NCBI GenBank assembly: GCA_013388755.1
Contig: JACAEQ010000116.1
Location: 1 to 64,000, forward strand
Direction: 5' to 3'
DNA length: 64,000 bases
Source: Chloroflexota bacterium
GTDB taxonomy: Bacteria > Chloroflexota > Chloroflexia > Chloroflexales > Roseiflexaceae
Within the stretch, counting starts at the first letter, position 1, and every line of letters starts with the position of its first letter. The translations under genes and the position numbers were made by a program. Of this stretch, positions 40,681 through 52,319 are shown piece after piece. The notes under the pieces are model-generated. The model had not been told where the DNA came from, did not search any database, and worked only from the letters and a program-made list of their open reading frames with translations.

Positions 40681-41832
40681 TCAGTATTTCGGCATCGAGG
40701 GGTCAACCTCGTCCGACCAGCGCAGGATGCCGCCTGCCAGGTTCTTCACCTTGCGAAAACCGGCCTGGCGCAACTGCTCGACGGCCCGGGCGCTACGCAC
40801 ACCGCTGCGGCAGTAGACCACCATTGCTACCGCGCTGTCGAGTTCATGCAGCCGTTCAGCCAGTTCATTGACCGAGATCCGCACCGCTCCCGGCAGGTGG
40901 CCGATCTCCCACTCGTTCGCCTCGCGAACGTCGAGCAGGAACGGCGGATCGCCGCGCTGGAGCCACTCGGCGACCTCAATCGGCGTGATTTCGACCGACG
41001 AATCGCGCTGTGCTTCCTCAGGTGTTATGCCACAGAATTGCTGGTAGTCGATCAGTTCAGTAATGGTCGGATGTTCACCGCACACCGGGCAGTCGGGGTT
41101 GCGGCGCAGTTTCAACTCGCGGAAGCGCATTGTCAGCGCATCGTAGAGTAGCAGGCGGCCAATCAGCGTCTCACCGCTGCCGGCAAGCAACTTGATTGCT
41201 TCGGTCGCCTGGATCGTACCGATCACGCCGGGGAGCACGCCAAGCACGCCCCCCTCGGCACAACTCGGCACCAGACCAGGCGGCGGCGGTTCAGGGTAGA
41301 GGCAACGGTAACACGGCCCGCCATCCTCTGGCGAAAAGACCGTCACCTGGCCCTCGAAGCGAAAGATCGAGCCGTACACATTCGGCTTACCAAGCATCAC
41401 ACTGGCATCATTGGTCAGATAGCGTGTCGGGAAGTTGTCGGTGCCATCAACAATGATATCGTAGGGGCGCATCAGGTCGAACGCATTCTCCGATGTGATC
41501 TGCGTCTCGTAGGTTGCGATATCGATATACGGGTTCAGGTCGCGCAGCCGCATCTTCGCCGACTCGGTCTTGCGAACGCCAAGGGTCGAGGTACCGTGGA
41601 CCACCTGGCGTTGCAGGTTGCTTTCGTCCACCACATCAAAATCCACCAGGCCGATATGGCCGACGCCGGCTGCAGCAAGATAGAGCGCCAGTGGCGAGCC
41701 CAACCCGCCGGTACCGATCAGCAGCACACTGCCGCACTTGAGTTTGCGCTGCGCCTCCATACCGAATTCCGGCAAGATCAGGTGGCGCGAATAGCGGCGA
41801 ATTTCCTCATTGGAGAGCGTGACTGGCCGCAT
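40681..41832 (-). CDS. moeZ: MoeZ-type E1-like adenylyltransferase with rhodanese domain
   Basis: A 383-residue ThiF/MoeB-like enzyme with a rhodanese tail, which in mycobacteria adenylates and thiolates the C-terminal Gly of CysO and MoaD. The N-terminal part has LSNEEIRRYSRHLILPEFG, the nucleotide loop LLIGTGGLGSPLALYL, VDESNLQRQ and the zinc pairs CYRC and CPVC. The rhodanese Cys is in VVYCRSGVRSARA. The C terminus reads EVDPSMPKY as in MoeZ. ATG 41832 has GGAAGG 9 bases upstream; the frame above it runs through heptamer DNA. It follows cysO by 51 bp. Confidence 0.92.
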   Translation of the reverse strand: MRPVTLSNEEIRRYSRHLILPEFGMEAQRKLKCGSVLLIGTGGLGSPLALYLAAAGVGHIGLVDFDVVDESNLQRQVVHGTSTLGVRKTESAKMRLRDLNPYIDIATYETQITSENAFDLMRPYDIIVDGTDNFPTRYLTNDASVMLGKPNVYGSIFRFEGQVTVFSPEDGGPCYRCLYPEPPPPGLVPSCAEGGVLGVLPGVIGTIQATEAIKLLAGSGETLIGRLLLYDALTMRFRELKLRRNPDCPVCGEHPTITELIDYQQFCGITPEEAQRDSSVEITPIEVAEWLQRGDPPFLLDVREANEWEIGHLPGAVRISVNELAERLHELDSAVAMVVYCRSGVRSARAVEQLRQAGFRKVKNLAGGILRWSDEVDPSMPKY

Positions 41833-41860
41833 AACAACATTCCTTCCAGCCATAACGAGC

Positions 41861-41895
41861 GTGCAACGTCCACCGTGCAACGTTCACCGTGCACC
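41861..41895. repeat. Five-unit heptamer array between cysO and moeZ
   Basis: GTGCAAC, GTCCACC, GTGCAAC, GTTCACC, GTGCACC in exact 7-bp register. On the cysO strand it encodes the last residues after Gly-Gly and the TGA at 41884-41886. Confidence 0.88.
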
Positions 41896-42177
41896 ATCCA
41901 GCACACCACCCGCGATCGCAGGAATAATACTGACCGTCTCGCCATCAGCCACAGGAGTCTCGACCCCCTGCAGATGGCGGATGTCTTCATCACCGACGTA
42001 AACATTCACAAAGCTGCGCAGGGCACCCTGGTCGTTGTAGAGCTGCTTACCGAGTTGCGGATACTGCTCGCGCAACGTGGCGAGAATCTGGCCAGCCGAA
42101 CCGGCTGGAAGTGTGATACTGGCATGACCGCCCGCGTACTGGCGGAGGGCGGTGGGTATCGTAACAGTGACAGGCAT
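41884..42177 (-). CDS. cysO: CysO-like ubiquitin-fold sulfur carrier with a C-terminal tail after Gly-Gly
   Basis: A 97-residue beta-grasp protein. VTIPTALRQYAGG, FVNVYVGDEDIRHLQG and VADGETVSIIPAIAGG match mycobacterial CysO almost position by position. In CysO the terminal Gly carries a thiocarboxylate that CysM uses to make cysteine. Mycobacterial CysO stops at Gly-Gly; here VLDGAR follows, so the thiocarboxylate cannot form until the tail is cut off. The JAMM protease gene mec lies 6 bp upstream. The tail is encoded by repeat DNA. Confidence 0.92.
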   Translation of the reverse strand: MPVTVTIPTALRQYAGGHASITLPAGSAGQILATLREQYPQLGKQLYNDQGALRSFVNVYVGDEDIRHLQGVETPVADGETVSIIPAIAGGVLDGAR

Positions 42178-42183
42178 TGAACC

Positions 42184-42645
42184 TTACCTCATCTCTTCAG
42201 CAACGAACCGCGCACCATCATCAACCAGCAACCATGCGGTCAACTCGGCGGCGCGGCCGCGATGCACACTCTGTATCAGAAACACGAACCGCGACCCACT
42301 ACCGATCGCCTGCGCGCCCATCAGATCACGTGGCGAGGGTACAGCCAAATGATCCGGGTGTGAGTGATAACACCCGACCACATCGAGCCCGCGCGCGTTG
42401 GCGACGCGATCGGCACGCAGATAATCGCGCGGATCAAGATAAAAGCGATCGCGCTGCGAATGGTCCGCGTCGGTTGGCGTCAACCCCACCTCTGCCGTCC
42501 AGCGATTAGGCGCAGGGAAGACATCCTCCACCTCGGTACGCATTCCAGTAATCCGGCCGAGCAGCAACCCGACGCACTCATTGGGATAGATCTCTTCGGC
42601 ATGCTGCGCGATAGCGTGATACACGTCGCCGGTAAGAATGATCAC
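42184..42645 (-). CDS. mec: Mec-type JAMM/MPN+ metalloprotease
   Basis: A 153-residue zinc isopeptidase. The JAMM motif is complete: Glu in YPNECVGLLLG, then HSHPDHLAVPSPRD (two His, Ser, Asp). In Mycobacterium, Mec hydrolyses the CysO-cysteine adduct to release cysteine; in the quinolobactin system QbsD trims a carrier to expose Gly-Gly. Either or both could apply here. GTG 42645 starts at the first beta strand; TTG 42678 adds 11 residues. It is directly upstream of cysO and 182 bp below cysM. Confidence 0.9.
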   Translation of the reverse strand: MIILTGDVYHAIAQHAEEIYPNECVGLLLGRITGMRTEVEDVFPAPNRWTAEVGLTPTDADHSQRDRFYLDPRDYLRADRVANARGLDVVGCYHSHPDHLAVPSPRDLMGAQAIGSGSRFVFLIQSVHRGRAAELTAWLLVDDGARFVAEEMR

Positions 42646-42678
42646 TTTGCTGTTCCCTGTTCCAGCGTTGAACTTCAA

Positions 42679-42834
42679 GTACTAAATCCAATACCTTTCA
42701 CATACGCCCGTCACCCCCACCCCGGCCCTCCCCCGCCGGGAGAGGGAGTCCGACTCCTCCCCCCGCCGGGGGGAGGTCGGGTGGGGGGCTGTGCGGTGCA
42801 GAACGCCTTATTTGAAAGGTATTGGTACTAAATC
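42679..42834. mobile_element. MITE-like element with perfect TIRs and 10-bp target duplication
   Basis: The element runs 42689-42824 (136 bp) with perfect 12-bp inverted ends CAATACCTTTCA and TGAAAGGTATTG. It is flanked by the direct repeat GTACTAAATC at 42679-42688 and 42825-42834. The interior is a GC-rich palindrome (CCCCCACCCCGGCCCTCCCC with CTCCCCCCGCCGGGGGGAG) and codes for nothing. The right flank contains the cysM stop codon (TAG on the minus strand), so insertion was at the very end of cysM. Confidence 0.85.
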
Positions 42835-43793
42835 CCCTCGCCATCACGCCCGTCGCCATCCTCCCAGAAGCGGTCGCTCAGGTACTTGGCGGCGCCATCG
42901 CACAGGATGGTCACGACCATTCCCTGGCGCATCTCGCGCGCAACGCGCACGGCGGCAGCGACATTGGCCGCTGCCGAGACCCCGACCATCAATCCCTCGG
43001 CACGGGCCAGGCGACGCGCCATTGCAAACGCCTCCTCGCTGGTAATCTCCAGTGTGGCATCTGCAAGGCGCGGATCATAGATCCCCGGCACCAGCGCGGT
43101 CGACGCCATGTGTTTAACACCTTCGAGTGCATGGTACGGCCCGTCCGGCTGGACAGCAACCAGGCGCACATCAGGGTTCTGCGCGCGCAGGAAGCGCCCG
43201 ACGCCAGTAAACGTACCGCTGGTACCGAGTGCGGCGACGAAATGGGTCACCCGGCCCCCGGTCTGCGCCCAGATTTCCGGACCGGTACTCTCCTCGTGGG
43301 CGCGCGGGTTTGCCGGATTATTGTACTGATCCGGGTAAAAATAGAGCTGCGGACGCGCCGCCACCAGTTCACGAATCTTACGGATGGCAGCATCCATACC
43401 TTCCAGCGGCTCCGTCAACACCAGGTCAGCACCAAGCGAGCGCAGGATGCGGCGCCGTTCCGGGCTGGCATTCGCCGGCAACGCCAGCGTAACGGGATAG
43501 CCGAGAGCCGCGCCGAGCGTCGCATAGGCAATCCCTGTGTTCCCGCTCGTCGCATCGGCGATCCGCATTCCGGGTCGCAACAGACCGCGACGTTCGCCAT
43601 CGCGAATCATCCAGAGCGCCGGGCGATCCTTCACCGACCCGCCGGGATTGTACCACTCTGCCTTGGCGTAGATCGTCACACCCTGCGGCAGATCGGGAGC
43701 GATACGCGCCAGGCGCAGAAGCGGCGTGTTACCGATCAAGTCAACAATCGTAGCGCGCCGGTCAGGCGACTCACTGGCAATCGAGCGGGTCAT
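42828..43793 (-). CDS. cysM: CysM-type cysteine synthase
   Basis: A 321-residue fold-II PLP enzyme. The PLP Lys55 is in NPGGSVKDRP; TSGNTG binds substrate and GTSGTFTGVG the phosphate. In this gene context it is expected to react O-phosphoserine (or O-acetylserine) with CysO thiocarboxylate, as in mycobacteria, not free sulfide. ATG 43793 is chosen; ATG 43823 would add ten residues. A palindromic element follows its stop immediately, separating it from mec. A related OASS or cystathionine synthase role cannot be excluded. Confidence 0.88.
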   Translation of the reverse strand: MTRSIASESPDRRATIVDLIGNTPLLRLARIAPDLPQGVTIYAKAEWYNPGGSVKDRPALWMIRDGERRGLLRPGMRIADATSGNTGIAYATLGAALGYPVTLALPANASPERRRILRSLGADLVLTEPLEGMDAAIRKIRELVAARPQLYFYPDQYNNPANPRAHEESTGPEIWAQTGGRVTHFVAALGTSGTFTGVGRFLRAQNPDVRLVAVQPDGPYHALEGVKHMASTALVPGIYDPRLADATLEITSEEAFAMARRLARAEGLMVGVSAAANVAAAVRVAREMRQGMVVTILCDGAAKYLSDRFWEDGDGRDGEGI

Positions 43794-43823
43794 GGTGCTG
43801 GCGACGAACCACAGACGAACCAT

Positions 43824-44219
43824 TCAGCGTTCATGCCATTCCCTGCGATACGTTGCAAGCGCGATTTTCAGCGTACGAAGGGCCAGCGTCGCACAGCGCG
43901 GGCGGGCGCCGACAACCTCACGGCCAAGGATGTCGATCATCTCTTCCGGCGACAACGCATCAACTGCGGCGAACGGAGCGCCAACCATGCGTTCGCTCAA
44001 CAATGACGCTGCCGCCTGAGAAACCGTGCACCCCTGACCATCGAACGATAACGCCGCGATATGATCGCCGGAAGGCGCGATTTTGAGATAGGCAATGACT
44101 GTATCGCCACACCCCGGGTCGCCGCCAGTCACGATGACATCAGCGTCGCCGAGCGGGCCACGATTGCGTGGATGCTGGTAATGATCCAGCAGGCGGGCGA
44201 TCAATGCTTCACGATCCAT
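43824..44219 (-). CDS. Second SufU/IscU-like scaffold or sulfur-transfer protein
   Basis: A 131-residue SufU-type protein. All three ligand cysteines are present: GDPGCGDT, GQGCTVSQAAASLL and RPRCATLALRTLK. It differs clearly from the SufU at 48325 (no NPLCGD). In firmicutes SufU is a zinc-dependent sulfur transferase for SufS. Lying between sufE and cysM, it may receive sulfur from the SufE route instead. It shares one base with the sufE stop. Confidence 0.88.
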   Translation of the reverse strand: MDREALIARLLDHYQHPRNRGPLGDADVIVTGGDPGCGDTVIAYLKIAPSGDHIAALSFDGQGCTVSQAAASLLSERMVGAPFAAVDALSPEEMIDILGREVVGARPRCATLALRTLKIALATYRREWHER

Positions 44220-44671
44220 TACGCGCCGCGATGTGCCAGTGCACGTGTTGCAAGTCGCTTCAGATACGCCAGCAGATAGCTGATGCCGTTCAAGCGTTGC
44301 GGCGAGAGAACCTGCTGCAAACCCATCGCGTAAAAGAAATCGCCAGGGATGGCCAGCACCGCCTCGGGTGTTGCGCCATCGAGACCTTCGCGCAGGAGCG
44401 CCGCATACCCGCGCACCGTCGGCGACTCCTCAGCAACGTCAATATGGAAGACCATGCGCCCGCCATGCACCTCAGCCGCGGCACGAACCGGCGTCATACA
44501 CTCGTGGACCTGTTCCATATCGGCACGGTTATCACGCAACCAGTCGGGCAGTGGCGGCAACCGGTCGGCATACTCAAGCAGCAACTCAAGTTTCTCCGAA
44601 CGGTCCGCCGCCTGAAACTCGGCAACGATCGCGTGCAGGTGTGGCGGAAGGCTGGCAGGAATCTCAGACAT
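44219..44671 (-). CDS. sufE: SufE-family sulfur acceptor
   Basis: A 150-residue SufE-like protein that accepts persulfide from a cysteine desulfurase. Typical stretches are LELLLEYADRLPPLPDWL, HECMTPVRAAAEV (acceptor Cys), ILAIPGDFFYAMGL-like AIPGDFFYAMGLQQVLSPQR and a helical end. ATG 44671 is used instead of TTG 44674. Having both SufE and SufU types in one locus is unusual. It is 11 bp below the rhodanese gene. Confidence 0.9.
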   Translation of the reverse strand: MSEIPASLPPHLHAIVAEFQAADRSEKLELLLEYADRLPPLPDWLRDNRADMEQVHECMTPVRAAAEVHGGRMVFHIDVAEESPTVRGYAALLREGLDGATPEAVLAIPGDFFYAMGLQQVLSPQRLNGISYLLAYLKRLATRALAHRGA

Positions 44672-44682
44672 CAACGTCCCGA

Positions 44683-45528
44683 CTACTTTTCAATCGGCAG
44701 ACCAACGCCATTACCCCATTCGGTCCAGCTACCATCGTAGTTGCGCACCTTCGGATAACCGAGCAGATACGACAACACGAACCATGTGTGACTGGAGCGT
44801 TCACCGATCCGGCAGTAGGAGATCACATCTTTATCCGGCGTCACATTTTTGCCCGCATACAGCGCGCGCAACTCATCGGCGCTCTTAAACGTGCTGTCAT
44901 CATGCACCGCGCTGGCCCACGGGATGCTGACCGCCGTAGGAATGTGCCCACCGCGCAGCGTCCCTTCCTGCGGATACTCCGGCATGTGCGTGCGCTCGCC
45001 GGAGTATTCCTGCGGGCTACGTACATCAACCAGGGCCGTGCCAGGCTGGCGAATATGCACCAGCACCTGGTCACGGAATGCGCGAATCGTTGTATCGTCA
45101 CGTTCCGGAGCGTGATACACCCCGGGCGAGTAGGTTGGGACCTCGCGAGTAAGCTGGCGCCCCTCAGCGATCCATTTTGCGCGACCGCCATTCATGATAC
45201 GCGCATCGGCATGGCCGAACAACTTGAACACCCAGAGCGCATAGGTAGCCCACCAGTTATGCTTATCGCCATAGAAGACCACCGTGGTATCATTGCTGAT
45301 CCCTCTGGCAATCATGAGCTGCTCAAAGCGCGCGCGATCGAGATAATCGCGCACCACCGGATCGTTGAGATCAGCGACCCAGTCGATCTTGACCGCACCC
45401 GGAATATGGCCCTGATCGTAGAGCAGAATATCCTCATTACTCTCGACGAGCCGCACCTTCGGATCGTGCAGATGGTCGGCAACCCACGCCGTATCGACCA
45501 GCACTTCAGGATGAGCATAACCAGCCAT
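44683..45528 (-). CDS. Thiosulfate sulfurtransferase (two-domain rhodanese)
   Basis: A 281-residue tandem rhodanese. The inactive N-terminal domain carries [15 protein letters not shown] and the catalytic C-terminal one [14 protein letters not shown] and [15 protein letters not shown] with active Cys. The CRIGERS loop is typical of actinobacterial and chloroflexal SseA/CysA-type thiosulfate sulfurtransferases. It may feed sulfane sulfur to SufE, MoeZ or CysO. It heads the minus-strand sulfur run. Confidence 0.92.
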
Positions 45529-45683
45529 ATGCGTCTCCGTTATTCTGAAGTAGATAGTGCAATTTAATCAACTATATTCTACCGCTGTTCCAGGCGTGAG
45601 TCAAGAAGATTCACCTTCGCAACTATTCACACTTCACCTGAACATGATATCTTCCGTCGGCGGGCCGACGTGAACCGGCATCT

Positions 45684-45756
45684 GGGATACCGTCCAGCCG
45701 CCGATTCCTCATGGTCGGGGGTTCGGGGGAAGCCCCCGACCATGATTCGGTATCCC
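45684..45756. repeat. Nested palindrome directly after the Rieske ferredoxin gene
   Basis: Outer arms GGGATACCG (45684-45692) and CGGTATCCC (45748-45756). Inner perfect 12-bp arms CATGGTCGGGGG (45710-45721) and CCCCCGACCATG (45733-45744). It begins one base after the Rieske stop and may be a terminator or a palindromic mobile repeat. Confidence 0.75.
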
Positions 45757-45757
45757 T

Positions 45758-46078
45758 TCACGCCGTTACCTTCAGCCACACATCCTCACCCTCGACCCGC
45801 ACCTCAAAGACATCAATCGGCGCGAACGCAGGGAGGGTCAGAGCGCGCCCGGTACGAATATCGAAGCGCGAACCATGGAGCGGGCACTCGATGGTGCAAT
45901 CGTCGGCATCAAAGGTACCCGCGCTCAACTCGGCATACGAGTGCGAGCAAATATCATCGGTAGCATAGATGGTCTCGCCAGCCCGAAACAGAGCGATCCG
46001 CCGGCCATTGTATTCAACGGCATGCACGCCACCATCGGGAAGATCGCTCTTTGTCGCGATTTTAATGAAATCAGACAT
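45758..46078 (-). CDS. Rieske-type [2Fe-2S] ferredoxin
   Basis: A 106-residue soluble Rieske protein. The cluster ligands are in ICSHSYAELS (Cys, His) and CPLHGSRFDIRTG (Cys, His). It resembles the ferredoxin components of aromatic dioxygenases and NirD-like proteins. It often accompanies suf genes, where it may donate electrons. ATG 46078 has AGAGGG upstream; the frame above it is intergenic. Confidence 0.92.
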   Translation of the reverse strand: MSDFIKIATKSDLPDGGVHAVEYNGRRIALFRAGETIYATDDICSHSYAELSAGTFDADDCTIECPLHGSRFDIRTGRALTLPAFAPIDVFEVRVEGEDVWLKVTA

Positions 46079-46323
46079 TGGACAGGGCCCTCTGTAGTAA
46101 CTGGTGACACGTATCGTGAAAGAGGTGTTGTTCCATCGGCGGAGCAGTAGTGCTGGCGCGTGGAGAAGCCTTCTCGCCGCCAATTCGTTCTCCCGGGGCT
46201 TGCCCCAGACGCCAATCGTGAACCCTCACGCCTGGCGGAGTGCCGGAAACACAAAGCGCGCCGCAATCGCACAACCTGTCGATCACGGCGCGCACCCGGT
46301 ATGAGCCTATGTCGAACCAGGCA

Positions 46324-46734
46324 TTACAGGCGGCCGTTGGAAGCGATCACCGGAAAGCGCGCCGGCAACCCGAGCGCATCGAGCAACGCGACCGGCTCAT
46401 TGTCCAGCCAGCCCGTTCCGGCGTCGCGCCCGCTGGCCACCAGCACCGACCCGATCGGTGGCACGAAGATAATATCCACCGTTCCCTCGCCCGTTACCAG
46501 GCCAATCCGGTCGAGCTTCCCCGAACGCACCTTCACCCACAACTTGAGCGACATGATGCCAATCCGGGCAATTGACGGAGCGGCACGCTCGAAAGCCGGG
46601 TCGCTGGCCCACAGCACCTGACCATTCAGGGCACAGAGAGCGGCCGCATCAATGCCGGGATGCCGGCGAAGGGCAGTTGCAATATGCTTCCCCGCACGAG
46701 CGACCAGTTCTGGCGTCAAGGCGATCGGTTGCAT
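46324..46734 (-). CDS. Roadblock/LC7-like domain protein
   Basis: A 136-residue small alpha/beta protein. IDAAALCALNGQVLWAS and LDRIGLVTGEGTVDIIFVPP with SVLVASGRD follow the pattern of Roadblock/LC7 regulators of small GTPases. GGAGG lies 10 bp upstream of ATG 46734. It follows sufB on the same strand, with a heptamer array between. No GTPase gene lies nearby; the fold assignment is moderate. Confidence 0.55.
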   Translation of the reverse strand: MQPIALTPELVARAGKHIATALRRHPGIDAAALCALNGQVLWASDPAFERAAPSIARIGIMSLKLWVKVRSGKLDRIGLVTGEGTVDIIFVPPIGSVLVASGRDAGTGWLDNEPVALLDALGLPARFPVIASNGRL

Positions 46735-46823
46735 TGGCGCAGTACCTCCAACGAGCGACAGCCAGTAGTACATACGACGCTATTGTACCATGCCGCATTA
46801 CCATTGGAGTGCCAGTGCCAGGG

Positions 46824-46844
46824 GTCAAACATTCAACGTTCAAT
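46824..46844. repeat. Short heptamer array downstream of sufB
   Basis: GTCAAAC, ATTCAAC, GTTCAAT at 7-bp spacing, 40 bp past the sufB stop. Confidence 0.55.
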
Positions 46845-46884
46845 CTGTGACCACCAGCGTTGAACATCTGCAACCCCACACCTC

Positions 46885-48300
46885 CTACCCGACCGACCCC
46901 TCCATTTCGAGCTGGATGAGGCGATTGAGTTCGACGGCATACTCCATGGGCAACTCACGGGTAAACGGCTCCATGAAGCCGAGGACAATCATCGAGAGCG
47001 CATCCGCCTCACCGATGCCGCGGCTCATCAGGTAGAAGAGTTGCTCCTCGCCAATCCGGCCCACCGTTGCTTCGTGGGCCAGGGTGCAGCGATCTTCCTC
47101 GATCTCGATGAACGGAATCGTATCCGATGCCGACTTCTCATCGAGGATCAGCGCATCGCAGTTCACGTTAATCTTCGCGCCAGTTGCACCCGGAGCCACC
47201 TTCGCCAGACCACGATAGGTCGTCTTACCACCATTCTTCGACACCGACTTATTCGTGATGCGGCTGGTCGTATCCGGCGCAACATGCACCATCTTGGCGC
47301 CGGCATCCTGATGCTGCCCCTTGCCGGCATAGGCCACCGAGAGCACCTCGCCGCGCGCACCGCGCCCCATCAGATAGACCGACGGGTACTTCATAGTCAG
47401 GCGCGATCCAATATTACCGTCAACCCATTCCATACTGGCCTCTTCGTAGGCCACTGCGCGCTTGGTCACCAGGTTGAAGATATTATTGGCCCAGTTCTGG
47501 ATGGTCGTATAGCGACACTTGCCGCCCTTCATCACAATAATCTCGACCACCGCCGAATGCAGCGAGTTGGTGCTATAGACCGGCGCGGTGCACCCTTCGA
47601 TATAGTGTGCCGAGGCGCCTTCCTCGATCACGATCAACGTTCGCTCGAACTGGCCCATGTTCTCTGCATTAATGCGGAAATACGCCTGCAGTGGAATATC
47701 AACGTGCACGCCCTTCGGCACATACACGAACGACCCGCCCGACCAGACGGCCGTATTCAACGCGGCATATTTATTATCCGCCGCCGGAATCACCGTGCCG
47801 AAATACTGCTTGAAGATTTCGGGATACTCCTTCAACCCGGTGTCGGTATCGAGGAAGATCACGCCCTGCCTGGACCATTCCTCGCGCAACGAGTGGTAGA
47901 CCACTTCCGACTCATACTGCGCGCCAACGCCGGCAAGAAACTTGCGTTCGGCCTCAGGAATGCCCAGTTTCTCGAAGGTATTCTTAATCTCCTGCGGCAC
48001 GGCGTCCCAGTCCGTCTGTGGGCGCTCGCCAGCGCGCACAAAGTAATGGATGTCGTCATAATTCAGTTCAGCAAGCTCCGGGTTGGCCCACATACCAGAA
48101 AGCGGCGTCGGCTTCTTGCGAAATATTTCGAGCGCCTGTAGGCGACGCTTCAGCATCCACTCCGGCTCACCCTTCATGCCCGACAGTTCCCGCACGACAC
48201 TCTCGGTCAGGCCCTTGCCGGACTTGAAGAGATAATTCTCCTCATTTCGGAAACCATACTTCGAGTAATCGAACTCCAGATTTGTCGCACTGACTGCCAT
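46885..48300 (-). CDS. sufB: SufB, Fe-S cluster scaffold subunit
   Basis: A 471-residue SufB. Characteristic stretches are [70 protein letters not shown] (conserved Cys) and [11 protein letters not shown]. It forms the SufBCD complex that builds and hands over clusters. ATG 48300 is selected; codons above are leader. It is the distal gene of the suf operon, 24 bp below sufU, instead of leading it. Confidence 0.96.
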
Positions 48301-48324
48301 TGGTATACTCCTCATACGCGATTC

Positions 48325-48729
48325 TTACAAATCATCATCATCGGGCGCGTGGCCCACACCATACAACCCGGCCTTCAGCGTTTTGAGCGCCAGCAGGGCG
48401 CACTTGATGCGCACCGGGTTGTGTTCTAACGGAATGCCGATCAAGTCGAGCAATCGCTCCTTACTGAACCGTTTTGCCTCTTCGACCGGCATGCCGATCA
48501 ATTCATCGGTCAACATCGAGGCCGAGGCCTGGCTGATCGCGCAGCCGCGGCCATCGAAACGCACATCGGTAATCACGTCGTGCTCAATCCGCAGATCGAG
48601 CCGGATGCGGTCGCCACAGAGCGGATTATGCTCCTCGGCGCTGATGTCGGGATGCTCCAGCCTCCCGTGATTATGCGGGTGTTTGTAATGCTCAAGAATG
48701 AGCTCACGGTACAGGTCGTCCATGATCAT
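48325..48729 (-). CDS. sufU: SufU, sulfur-transfer/scaffold protein of the suf operon
   Basis: A 134-residue SufU. Ligands are EHNPLCGDRI, GRGCAISQASASML and IKCALLALKTLK; the Gly-Cys spacing is the SufU type. It receives sulfur from SufS. ATG 48729 overlaps the sufS stop by 4 bp (ATGA), so coupling is expected. The acidic DDDDL tail is unusual but short. Confidence 0.95.
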   Translation of the reverse strand: MIMDDLYRELILEHYKHPHNHGRLEHPDISAEEHNPLCGDRIRLDLRIEHDVITDVRFDGRGCAISQASASMLTDELIGMPVEEAKRFSKERLLDLIGIPLEHNPVRIKCALLALKTLKAGLYGVGHAPDDDDL

Positions 48730-49970
48730 CCAAACAGGTTACGCGCCTTATCCAGCGCCGCGACCAGCCGATCCACTTCTTCGGCAGTATTATACAGATA
48801 GAACGACGCGCGGGTCGTGGCTGGAACATTCAAATGCGCATGCAGCGGCTGGGTGCAATGGTGCCCGGCGCGCACGGCGATCCCTTCACTGTCGAGTGCT
48901 GCCGCAACATCATGCGGATGGACATCTTCGAGGGTAAAACTCAGCGCGCCGCCGCGCATTTCCGTCGTCTGCGGGCCATAGATGGTCAACCCCTCAACTC
49001 CCGCCAGTCGGTCGATGGCATACCCCAGCAACTCGCGCTCGTGGGCATAGATACGCGCCATACCGACTTCCTGCAGGAAATCAACAGCCTCACCAAGCGC
49101 AATCGCCTCCGCAATCGCCGGCGTACCGGCCTCGAAACGCGCCGGCACGTCGGCATAGCTTGATTCGTGCAGGCTGACGACTTTGATCATGGAGCCGCCG
49201 CCCAGGAAGGGCGGCATCTGCTCAAGGAGCGCGCGCCGCCCCCACAGCACACCGATGCCGGTCGGGGCACACATTTTGTGCCCGCTGAACGCCAGGAAGT
49301 CAATATCGAGCGCCTGCACGTCCACCGGCATATGCGGCACACTCTGCGCACCATCCACCAGGATGAGGGCACCGGCGGCGTGGGCGCGCCGCGCAATCTC
49401 CGCCACCGGGTTGATCGTCCCCAGCACATTCGATTGCTGCGTCAGCGCCACCAGCCGCACCCCCTGCAGTTGCGCATCGAGATGATCAAGCACCAGGCGC
49501 CCTTCGCCGTCAAGCGACAGGAACTCCAGCTTCGCGCCAGTACGCTGCGCCAGCATCTGCCATGGCACCAGGTTCGAGTGGTGTTCCATGACACTGAGCA
49601 AGATACGATCGCCTTCGCGCAGGTTCACATCACCCCACGAGCGCGCCACCAGGTTAATCGCCTCGGTGGTATTGCGCACAAAGACGACCTCGCGCTGGCT
49701 CCTGGCATTGATGAAGCGCGCCACCTTACCGCGCGCCCGTTCAAACGCAAACGTTGCCTCTTCGCTCAGCCGATAGACGCCACGATGGACATTGGCGTTG
49801 TAGCGCCGGTAATAATCCTCCAGGCAATCAATCACCCGGCGCGGCTTCTGTGATGACGCGGCGCTATCAAGAAACGCCAGTGTCTTGCCATTCATCGGCT
49901 GGCTGAGAATAGGGAACTCCCGCCGTAACGCGAGAATATCGAACTGGTCAAGAGTCATGCTGCTGGTCAT
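48726..49970 (-). CDS. sufS: SufS, group II cysteine desulfurase
   Basis: A 414-residue PLP enzyme releasing sulfur from cysteine. The PLP lysine is in FSGHKMCAPTGIGVLWG and the active-site Cys in VRAGHHCTQPLHAHL, the group II form. The N terminus is FDILALRREFPILSQ. Start ATG 49970 (MTSSMTLDQ) or 49958 (MTLDQ); neither has a strong Shine-Dalgarno. The upstream gap of about 170 bp to sufD holds a palindrome. Confidence 0.96.
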   Translation of the reverse strand: MTSSMTLDQFDILALRREFPILSQPMNGKTLAFLDSAASSQKPRRVIDCLEDYYRRYNANVHRGVYRLSEEATFAFERARGKVARFINARSQREVVFVRNTTEAINLVARSWGDVNLREGDRILLSVMEHHSNLVPWQMLAQRTGAKLEFLSLDGEGRLVLDHLDAQLQGVRLVALTQQSNVLGTINPVAEIARRAHAAGALILVDGAQSVPHMPVDVQALDIDFLAFSGHKMCAPTGIGVLWGRRALLEQMPPFLGGGSMIKVVSLHESSYADVPARFEAGTPAIAEAIALGEAVDFLQEVGMARIYAHERELLGYAIDRLAGVEGLTIYGPQTTEMRGGALSFTLEDVHPHDVAAALDSEGIAVRAGHHCTQPLHAHLNVPATTRASFYLYNTAEEVDRLVAALDKARNLFG

Positions 49971-50075
49971 GTGATTACGCCTGACCACTACAGCGGCGAG
50001 CAGCACCCGTGATCCGCGGACGCGTCCCCGTTTCTGTTCGCCGCGCGCCCCACCCGGGCGCAAGGTTGTTGCACA

Positions 50076-50133
50076 TTGCCATAAGGCCCATCCAGAGCGG
50101 GAGGCTGTGCAGTGCGTCGAGCCTTATGGGCAA
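50076..50133. repeat. Imperfect palindrome between sufD and sufS
   Basis: TTGCCATAAGGC (50076-50087) is complementary to GCCTTATGGGCAA (50121-50133) with one bulged base. It lies in an otherwise compact operon, so it could attenuate or process the suf mRNA or be a mobile repeat. Confidence 0.5.
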
Positions 50134-50143
50134 GGTAGTGCTC

Positions 50144-51355
50144 CTAGATCTTCGCTTCGATCATCTCTGCGATCCGCTGGCGCAGCGCCTCGGTTGGAAT
50201 ACGATCGAGCACTGGCTCGAAGAAGCCCATCACAATCAGATGAATCGCATCATCACGTGGAATGCCGCGCGAGCGCATGTAGAACAGTTGCTCCTCATCT
50301 ACCTCGCCACTGGTAGACGCATGGCCTGCGCGGGCAACATCATTGGTGTCGATCATCAGGCCTGGAATAGAGTCACTGCGCGCCTTCGGCGTCAGGTGCA
50401 ACGCATGTTCCTCGAGGCGCGAGACCGTCGCGCGACTCTGATGCTCAATCTTGATCATGCCGTCGAAGGTCGTATAGCTCTGATCCTTGACGACCGTCTT
50501 GAAATCCATGTGCGCTTCGGTTTTCGCGCCGATATGGCGCAGCCACGGTGCGGTCAACAGATTCTGATGGCCGCCGCCGAAGGTCGCCGCCACCCACTCA
50601 ACGCGCGATCCATCCCCTTCAAGAGCAGTCTCGGCTTCAACATGCTGCACCCGCGCACCAAGGTTCACGGCGGACCACTCGATCGTTGCGCCGCGCCCGA
50701 CGCGCGCTTTCTGCGCCCCGATGTGATACACATCCTCTCCCCAGGTCTGCACGGTCACGAACCGCAGGGTCGCGTCATTACCAAGGAACATCTCGGTGAT
50801 CGGCGCGGCGAAGGCCTGGCCGGCGCCGGCGTCCGAGCGATATTCTTCCACGAAGGTCACGCTGGCGCCGTGATCCAGAATAATCAGGTTCCGCGCCACG
50901 ATGGCATCGCCAGGCGCAGGCATGGTAAACGCAGCCGTCAGCGGCAACTCGACAGCGGTATTTTGCGGCACATACAGAAACACACCATCCTGCCACAACG
51001 CCGCATTGAGTGCGACAAACTTGTGGCGCTGCGAGTCAATTGCCGTGCCAAGATGTTGCCTGATCACTGCCTCGTGGGTATGCAACGCCTGCAGGAGCGG
51101 AGCAAAAACGACGCCCTGCCCGGCAGGATCGCGTTCCCAGACCAGGATGGTCGCGCTGGCGCCAATTGCTGCCGCAATCTGCTCAGCCTTGAACTTCGAC
51201 AGATCGGTGCGGCGCCAGAAAGGAGGCTCAGCGGCGGCAAAAAAACGCCACGCAGCCATGCGCTGCTCGGCCAGCCATGCCGGCTCGCCCGCTGCCTGTG
51301 AAACATCAAGTATGGTCGTGTCGCTCAATTCGGCAAGGGTGGGAAACGTCTTCAT
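50144..51355 (-). CDS. sufD: SufD, Fe-S assembly subunit
   Basis: A 403-residue SufB/D-family beta-helix protein. Seen are AALNAALWQDGVFLYVPQNT, NLIILDHGASVTFVEEY, DFKTVVKDQSYTTFDGMIKI and SGEVDEEQLFYMRSRGI. It partners SufB and SufC. The start is 2 bp after the sufC stop. It lacks the clear SufB Cys motif, supporting SufD. Confidence 0.95.
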   Translation of the reverse strand: MKTFPTLAELSDTTILDVSQAAGEPAWLAEQRMAAWRFFAAAEPPFWRRTDLSKFKAEQIAAAIGASATILVWERDPAGQGVVFAPLLQALHTHEAVIRQHLGTAIDSQRHKFVALNAALWQDGVFLYVPQNTAVELPLTAAFTMPAPGDAIVARNLIILDHGASVTFVEEYRSDAGAGQAFAAPITEMFLGNDATLRFVTVQTWGEDVYHIGAQKARVGRGATIEWSAVNLGARVQHVEAETALEGDGSRVEWVAATFGGGHQNLLTAPWLRHIGAKTEAHMDFKTVVKDQSYTTFDGMIKIEHQSRATVSRLEEHALHLTPKARSDSIPGLMIDTNDVARAGHASTSGEVDEEQLFYMRSRGIPRDDAIHLIVMGFFEPVLDRIPTEALRQRIAEMIEAKI

Positions 51356-51357
51356 GG

Positions 51358-52140
51358 TTAGCTACTCGCAACCTCCTCGCGGATGAAGTCGTACCCCTTC
51401 TCCTCAAGTTCAAGCGCCAGTTCCGGGCCACCCTCACGCACGATCCGCCCATCCATCAACACCGACACATAGTGCGGCTTGATATAGTTCAGCAGGCGCT
51501 GGTAGTGCGTAATGACCAGCACGCCCATATCCGGATGCTGCTCGTACAGGGTGTTGACGCCCTGGGAGACGATTTTGAGCGCATCGATATCAAGCCCCGA
51601 GTCAGTCTCATCCATAATCGCCATACCGGGCTGCAACATCGCCATCTGCAGGATCTCAACCCGCTTCTTCTCGCCGCCGGAGAAGCCTTCGTTCAGGTAG
51701 CGGCGGGCAAAACCTTCATCAATACTCAGCGCCGCCATCTGCTCACGAATCTGCTTGCGGAACTGCGCCATCGGAATTGCGGTCTCTTTCGGATCCTTGC
51801 CCTCCTCGGCACGGTGCGCATTGATTGCCGCGCGCAGGAAGTTCGCTACCGTCACTCCCGGAATGGCCACCGGGTACTGGAAGGCGAGGAACAGGCCGAG
51901 CTTTGAGCGCTCATCCGGCTCCAGTTCAAGGATGTTTTGCCCCTGGTACCAGGCCTCGCCACCGGTCACGGTATAGCCTGGATGCCCCATGAGTGTATAG
52001 GCCAGCGTACTCTTACCGCTGCCGTTGGGGCCCATGATTGCGTGGATCGACCCTGCCCTGACGGTCAGGTTGACACCCTTGAGGATCTCTTTATCCTCAA
52101 TGCTGACGCGCAAATCTTTAATGACGAGATCGCTGTTCAA
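51358..52140 (-). CDS. sufC: SufC, ABC ATPase of the SUF complex
   Basis: A 260-residue ATPase. Walker [11 protein letters not shown]-loop [13 protein letters not shown], signature [14 protein letters not shown] and Walker [17 protein letters not shown] are intact, the last being the SufC form. TTG 52140 is chosen because GGAG lies 6 bases upstream and [11 protein letters not shown] begins the fold. A GTG at 52167 would add nine unconserved residues. Confidence 0.95.
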
Positions 52141-52319
52141 TGGAAACTCCTGTTCTTCATGGTGCACAATAGCTGTTTACTGAGACGCCACGTCCCTGTG
52201 TCCATACCGCCGGCGGGGCGACGGCGCTGGCGCATGTGACCGCCATCCCGCCGCCGGCCCCGGATTCCGGAGGCTTCTCCCGGACCTCAACGCGCCACCC
52301 ACCACACAGGTCTGTCTAC

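Follow-up and report, generated by a model that had tools for sequence, protein, structure and literature searches.

The CysO-type sulfur carrier encoded in the window (the whole 64,000-nucleotide stretch of DNA analyzed here) is made as a pro-protein in which the residues VLDGAR follow the working Gly-Gly. The adjoining gene, mec, encodes a complete JAMM protease, which, from sequence comparisons, is very likely to trim this tail. We also consider a fuller scheme likely, with catalytic steps that we infer, in which Mec trims CysO, MoeBR and CysM act on the trimmed carrier, and Mec then frees cysteine and probably cuts a MoaD-MoaE fusion encoded elsewhere in the genome.

The capped carrier and its operon

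CysO matched the Pfam ThiS family (E = 2.6e-11, 44 bits), with the match ending at residue 91, and its residues 1 to 91 aligned with full-length Mycobacterium tuberculosis CysO (3DWG_C, E = 2e-19). The last residues of the mycobacterial protein, GG, pair with residues 90 and 91 of the window protein, whose C-terminal sequence is ...SIIPAIAGG-VLDGAR; thus, VLDGAR (residues 92 to 97) lies beyond the working GG. Because of these added residues, we classed the protein as a pro-form, or capped, carrier and not as a canonical CysO: its gene product does not end at GG, and a GG terminus would arise only after processing. A 14-nt tandem repeat supplies LDGAR and the stop codon, and since the tail is partly encoded by this repeat, we regard its sequence as lineage-specific. 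We rejected translation past the cysO stop into moeB as an explanation: the two genes share a frame with one TGA between them, but relatives show no constraint on the distance from cysO to moeB. No true cysO-moeB fusions were found in Chloroflexales, and they were seen only outside that order. The coordinates of all features are summarized in Table 1.

Table 1. Features of the cysM-mec-cysO-moeBR locus, with positions in the window
Feature	Position	Strand	Basis
cysO, ThiS/CysO-like sulfur carrier, pro-form, 97 aa	41884..42177	-	Pfam ThiS match, 3DWG_C alignment, orthologs
Gly90-Gly91, predicted mature C-terminus	41905..41910	-	aligned to M. tuberculosis CysO terminal GG
Tail VLDGAR, predicted to be removed; predicted scissile bond Gly91-Val92	41887..41904	-	comparison of CysO ends
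14-nt tandem repeat, 3 copies, overlapping tail codons and cysO stop	41860..41901	.	
mec, JAMM/Prok-JAB metalloprotease, probable GTG start 42645	42184..42678	-	profile match, active site, model
Mec JAMM residues	E 42577-42579, H 42364-42366, H 42358-42360, S 42334-42336, D 42325-42327	-	
cysM, PLP-dependent cysteine synthase	42828..43823	-	TIGR01138 E = 2e-106, below curated cut-off
moeBR/moeZ-like, E1-like adenylyltransferase + rhodanese	ORF 40681..41880, probable ATG 41832	-	
NifU_N/SufU-like, SufE, and rhodanese sulfurtransferase genes, directly upstream of cysM	43824..45528	-	

Mec matched the Prok-JAB profile (E = 1.8e-22) and has the full set of JAMM residues, E + HxH(x7)Sx2D (E..HSH..S..D), which was invariant in 47 homologs; the initial annotation was therefore right to call it a complete JAMM protease. 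The AlphaFold2 model of Mec (pLDDT 88.9) most closely resembled 2KKS, PfJAMM1-SAMP2, and CsRpn11-CsUb, with Z scores of 17-18 against JAMM structures (about 17 for PfJAMM1-SAMP2 and CsRpn11-CsUb). The NCBIfam models for SAMP1, desampylase, and CysM all scored below cut-off at this locus, so we claim no equivalog names.

On the minus strand, the genes run in the order cysM, mec, cysO, and the E1-rhodanese gene moeBR, and cysO thus shares an operon with cysM and mec, the arrangement typical of CysO. Directly upstream of these genes lies a suf-like stretch on the same strand (44683-52167), which by eye contains SufC-, SufD-, SufS-, and SufB-like genes and also holds Rieske-like, sulfurtransferase, SufE, and SufU-like genes. 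It could possibly feed persulfide to the rhodanese domain, and the NifU_N/SufU-like, SufE, and rhodanese sulfurtransferase genes next to cysM are a possible source. By sequence, the CysM substrate may be either O-phosphoserine or O-acetylserine. No E2 or E3 partners of a eukaryote-like ubiquitin conjugation system were seen in the neighborhood as read. The genome also has a strong match to CysE and hence another route to cysteine besides CysO.

CysO ends in relatives and other phyla

Whole-genome searches detected CysO in 55 of 80 relatives' genomes, including single-contig ones. The initial annotation had proposed comparing the CysO ends of relatives, and that comparison upheld the tail: GG was kept in all 51 distinct Chloroflexales CysO proteins, and 48 of them continued for another 1-11 residues (e.g. 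V, VR, VRL, ARS, MR, SC, INQ, GRR, RR, and SALPGRPPRYE). Tails occur in the single-contig genomes G003, G045, G047, and G054, and mec adjoins cysO in Chloroflexales wherever the contig reaches. Both the sequence and the length of the tail differ in nearly every species, and in at least 15 genes from Chloroflexaceae the stop codon of cysO overlaps the start of moeB. Since the tail is coded in the window by a tandem repeat and in many Chloroflexaceae by overlap with the moeB start, its sequence looks free and the position of the cut fixed. The tails are nonetheless short: their median length is 2, whereas in the other two frames the first stop comes after a median of 22 codons.

The residues that directly follow GG also carry a signal. 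Proline never occupied P1′ in 240 tails and linkers, as against 95 of 1,077 residues at P2′-P12′. When the sequences were clustered at 75% identity, this became 0/116 at P1′ and 62/651 at later positions (Fisher P = 5e-5), where proline makes up 9% of residues. The residues present at P1′ were chiefly A, S, R, G, V, M, and C. An indirect sign of proteolysis, this exclusion is what one would expect of a bond that has to be cleaved, and it is independent of operon structure.

Tails of 1-27 residues, or GG fusions to MoeB, were found in Acidobacteriota, Actinomycetota, other Chloroflexota, and further phyla. Tailed CysO had been taken for something unusual, and this part of the initial annotation was not supported: nearly all Chloroflexales have a tail, and it is frequent in the first three of these other groups. 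CysO-GG-linker-MoeB fusions beside an HSHPD-type JAMM numbered 17 in Acidobacteriota, with others besides (domains were checked in L061). With or without a rhodanese domain, this is the common acidobacterial form (L061, L064, L086, L088, L093, L110, L178-L180, L388-L417). A natural CysO-GG-CysM fusion was seen once, in the actinobacterial genome G510 (L336:583-1878, minus strand), with Mec directly upstream. A Sumerlaeota protein (L085:3501-4031) joins a CysO-like domain and GG to about 86 residues that appear NIL-like by eye. A GG that never varies ahead of a hypervariable tail, the missing proline at P1′, the GG fusions to MoeB, CysM, and MoaE, and the single JAMM of the genome together support the earlier proposal of a pro-protein carrier.

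Eight genomes of streptomycete type all had a tailed CysO-type paralog (GG-MA, MS, MR, or 13 residues), and a second paralog ended at GG in seven of the eight. Mec lay within 0.65 kb of the tailed paralog in five cases and at a distance of 3.6-5.7 kb in the other three. Mec with the motif HSHTATEAYPSRTD partners the streptomycete GG-MA/MS CysO and is also found beside the tail-less mycobacterial-type CysO. The initial annotation had contrasted the window with mycobacteria, where Mec was said only to release cysteine; this contrast holds locally but does not extend to the HSHTATEAYPSRTD type of Mec, which also accompanies tailed carriers. Because Mycobacterium-type CysO (L366, L367) has Mec and no tail, a tail is permitted but not required. 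Of five genomes with a CysO-like gene and no detected JAMM, four have a tail of 0 (L079, L107, L182, L438), and the fifth (L217), a draft of 83% completeness, has tails.

Operon adjacency was set aside as the main test. In raw counts over all phyla, JAMM adjacency was associated with tails (164:17 vs 27:38, P = 1e-14), but the association lost significance when only the 7 phylogenetically independent pairs were compared. A JAMM gene need not be a neighbor of cysO to be present, which makes adjacency an unreliable stand-in: 77 of the 80 genomes examined encode a JAMM somewhere.

MoaD-MoaE and the JAMM count

A genome search returned a single PF14464 protein above cut-off, the Mec of the window. 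A further weak PF14464 match is RadC-like (HNHPSGDPSPSPED) and was rejected as a second JAMM. The same genome encodes a MoaD-MoaE fusion joined through PPVSGG-AARAF (G000:C30, locus L243:1057-1920, minus strand), which the initial annotation did not mention and which also occurs in most JAMM-bearing Chloroflexales. With no other ubiquitin-type JAMM detected in the genome, Mec probably cuts MoaD-MoaE as well, a claim that draws on the JAMM count. The third ThiS/MoaD-like protein of this genome (L003, G000:C85:24042-24302) ends in GG-A.

We used MoaD as the control carrier instead of ThiS, because only 2 of 60 relatives have ThiS (TIGR01683). Among Chloroflexales, 41 of the 45 JAMM-bearing genomes had a fused or tailed MoaD, whereas MoaD stopped right at GG in 8 of the 11 genomes that lack a JAMM (P = 4.5e-5, uncorrected for relatedness). 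In family f3, which we take from its gene content to be Herpetosiphon-like, JAMM-less genomes have a MoaD that ends exactly at GG, and the fusion is present in G048, the sole f3 genome with a strong JAMM. Genus g8 has lost CysO and kept both the JAMM and the MoaD-MoaE fusion. By the g8 and f3 patterns, this JAMM tracks carrier maturation and is not confined to cysteine synthesis. Five f3 genomes without CysO contain a divergent JAMM-like protein (L170, L171; 36-38 bits; motif DIHSHHGMPAYFSPTD), which by judgment we counted as not being of the ubiquitin-processing type.

There were exceptions. G009 (96% complete) has a fused MoaD-MoaE with neither JAMM nor CysO detected, and a missing contig would explain both absences. 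G021 (87%) is another, and G119 (83%) has tails with no JAMM detected. All three may reflect assembly gaps. Overall, the conserved GG with its variable tail, the missing proline at P1′, the GG fusions, and the single JAMM in the genome agree with the earlier view of the neighboring JAMM as the obvious trimming enzyme.

Proposed cycle, alternatives, and known systems

We propose that CysO is synthesized as a pro-carrier whose working GG is blocked by VLDGAR. Mec would bind the ubiquitin fold of CysO and hydrolyze the peptide bond that follows Gly91, so that VLDGAR is released and GG becomes the new C-terminus. MoeBR, an E1-rhodanese protein, would then adenylate and thiocarboxylate the terminal glycine, and CysM would add activated serine to give CysO-Cys. 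A second cut by Mec, at the Gly-Cys bond, would yield free cysteine and regenerate CysO. By analogy with the mycobacterial pathway and given the operon, it seems reasonably probable that the same Mec performs this last step. A broader claim, that Mec is the sole maturase of both CysO and MoaD-MoaE and also releases cysteine from CysO-Cys, could equally well be right or wrong.

Several other readings bear on parts of this scheme. Mec might only trim CysO and MoaD, with another peptidase freeing cysteine or the carrier giving its sulfur elsewhere (Moco, tRNA, or other thiolations). Genus g8 indicates that trimming alone preserves the gene, and the genome has CysE; however, the operon with cysM, the natural CysO-CysM fusion beside Mec, and the release of cysteine by mycobacterial Mec (cited in PMC3227635) make this restricted role unlikely. 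A different division of labor, in which a general carboxypeptidase or other protease removes the tail and Mec acts on CysO-Cys alone, is favored by the fact that the mycobacterial MoaX protease was still unidentified in 2015 (PMC4326299). We think it highly improbable, as fusion through GG to MoeB, CysM, or MoaE would not be explained by an exoprotease, and the f3 genomes that lack a JAMM keep an exact GG.

The tail itself may be passive, with the stop codon drifting and a broad JAMM stripping whatever follows GG. Trimming would then still be real, and this idea is compatible with our preferred scheme. The change in sequence and length in nearly every species favors it, as do the 14-nt repeat that yields LDGAR and a stop and the drift of the Chloroflexus stop into the moeB start, whereas the short tails, set against the distance to stops in other frames, seem to have been favored. 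We consider the passive tail an evenly balanced proposition. That CysO truly ends at GG and the tail is a sequencing error or missed stop was conceivable for a draft assembly of 145 contigs, but the independently assembled orthologs, single-contig genomes among them, refute it by comparison and leave it a negligible chance.

The principle of the proposed trimming is already published, both for capped carriers with uncapping JAMMs and for JAMM cutting of MoaD-MoaE, and our prediction is ordinary in kind and well supported. In QbsD/QbsE, PdtG/PdtH, and HcyD/HcyS, a JAMM strips one or two residues after GG and so allows thiocarboxylation, there in siderophore or methionine pathways. Trimming by QbsD is cited in PMC6006322. 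Streptomyces platensis has the capped carriers PtmS2 (GG-MV) and PtmS3 (GG-C); its JAMM gene, ptmS1, lies in a cluster with ptmS2, and production that relies on capped carriers ceases once ptmS1 is deleted (PMC6006322). The window pair shares this arrangement of a ThiS/CysO-like carrier with residues after GG, an adjacent JAMM gene, and an E1-rhodanese partner. The PtmS system was studied for thiocarboxylic antibiotics, whereas here we see a cysM-mec-cysO-moeBR operon, the VLDGAR tail, and a JAMM apparently shared with MoaD-MoaE.

The M. tuberculosis cysteine pathway (CysO-Mec-CysM-MoeZ), in which Mec releases cysteine, has the same four activities and a homologous carrier, but its CysO ends at GG, and, by the locus tags in PMC3227635, its moeZ is not beside cysO. 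Mycobacterial-type loci also have the JAMM motif HSHT.. in place of HSHPD... Deinococcus DRJAMM cleaves MoaD-MoaE and is required for DMSO reductase (PMC8832034), and M. tuberculosis MoaX is functional only once cut between Gly82 and Ser83 (PMC4326299); both fusions join MoaD and MoaE through GG and are cut after it, although a CysO tail was not part of those studies. In Caldiarchaeum, JAMMs cut ubiquitin and SAMP precursors (CsRpn11/CsUb-pre and CsJAMM/CsSAMP; PMC6043591), so that a JAMM likewise matures a ubiquitin-like precursor and removes conjugates, but within an archaeal protein-conjugation system. Operon type 4c of Iyer et al. 2006 combines ThiS/MoaD, E1-rhodanese, JAB, and cysteine synthase in Chloroflexus aurantiacus, and that study predicts JAB cutting for carrier fusions; its passages on these points (PMC1779556) do not mention a tail, whereas the window carrier has one.

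What we add is the breadth of tails, the proline signature at P1′, the CysM fusion, and the one-JAMM argument, for none of which did we find a published statement in the open-licence literature. Pro-form carriers are thus widespread in primary metabolism, beyond a siderophore or antibiotic specialty, and an invariant GG with a variable tail and no proline at P1′ offers a signature for recognizing JAMM-processed ubiquitin-like carriers. Mec is a candidate protease for MoaD-MoaE fusions and, by the same logic, mycobacterial Mec is one for MoaX. If Mec does serve both carriers and also frees cysteine, Moco synthesis and CysO-dependent cysteine synthesis would both hang on one ubiquitin-type protease. 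JAMM maturation of ubiquitin-like precursors appears to be a common bacterial trait.
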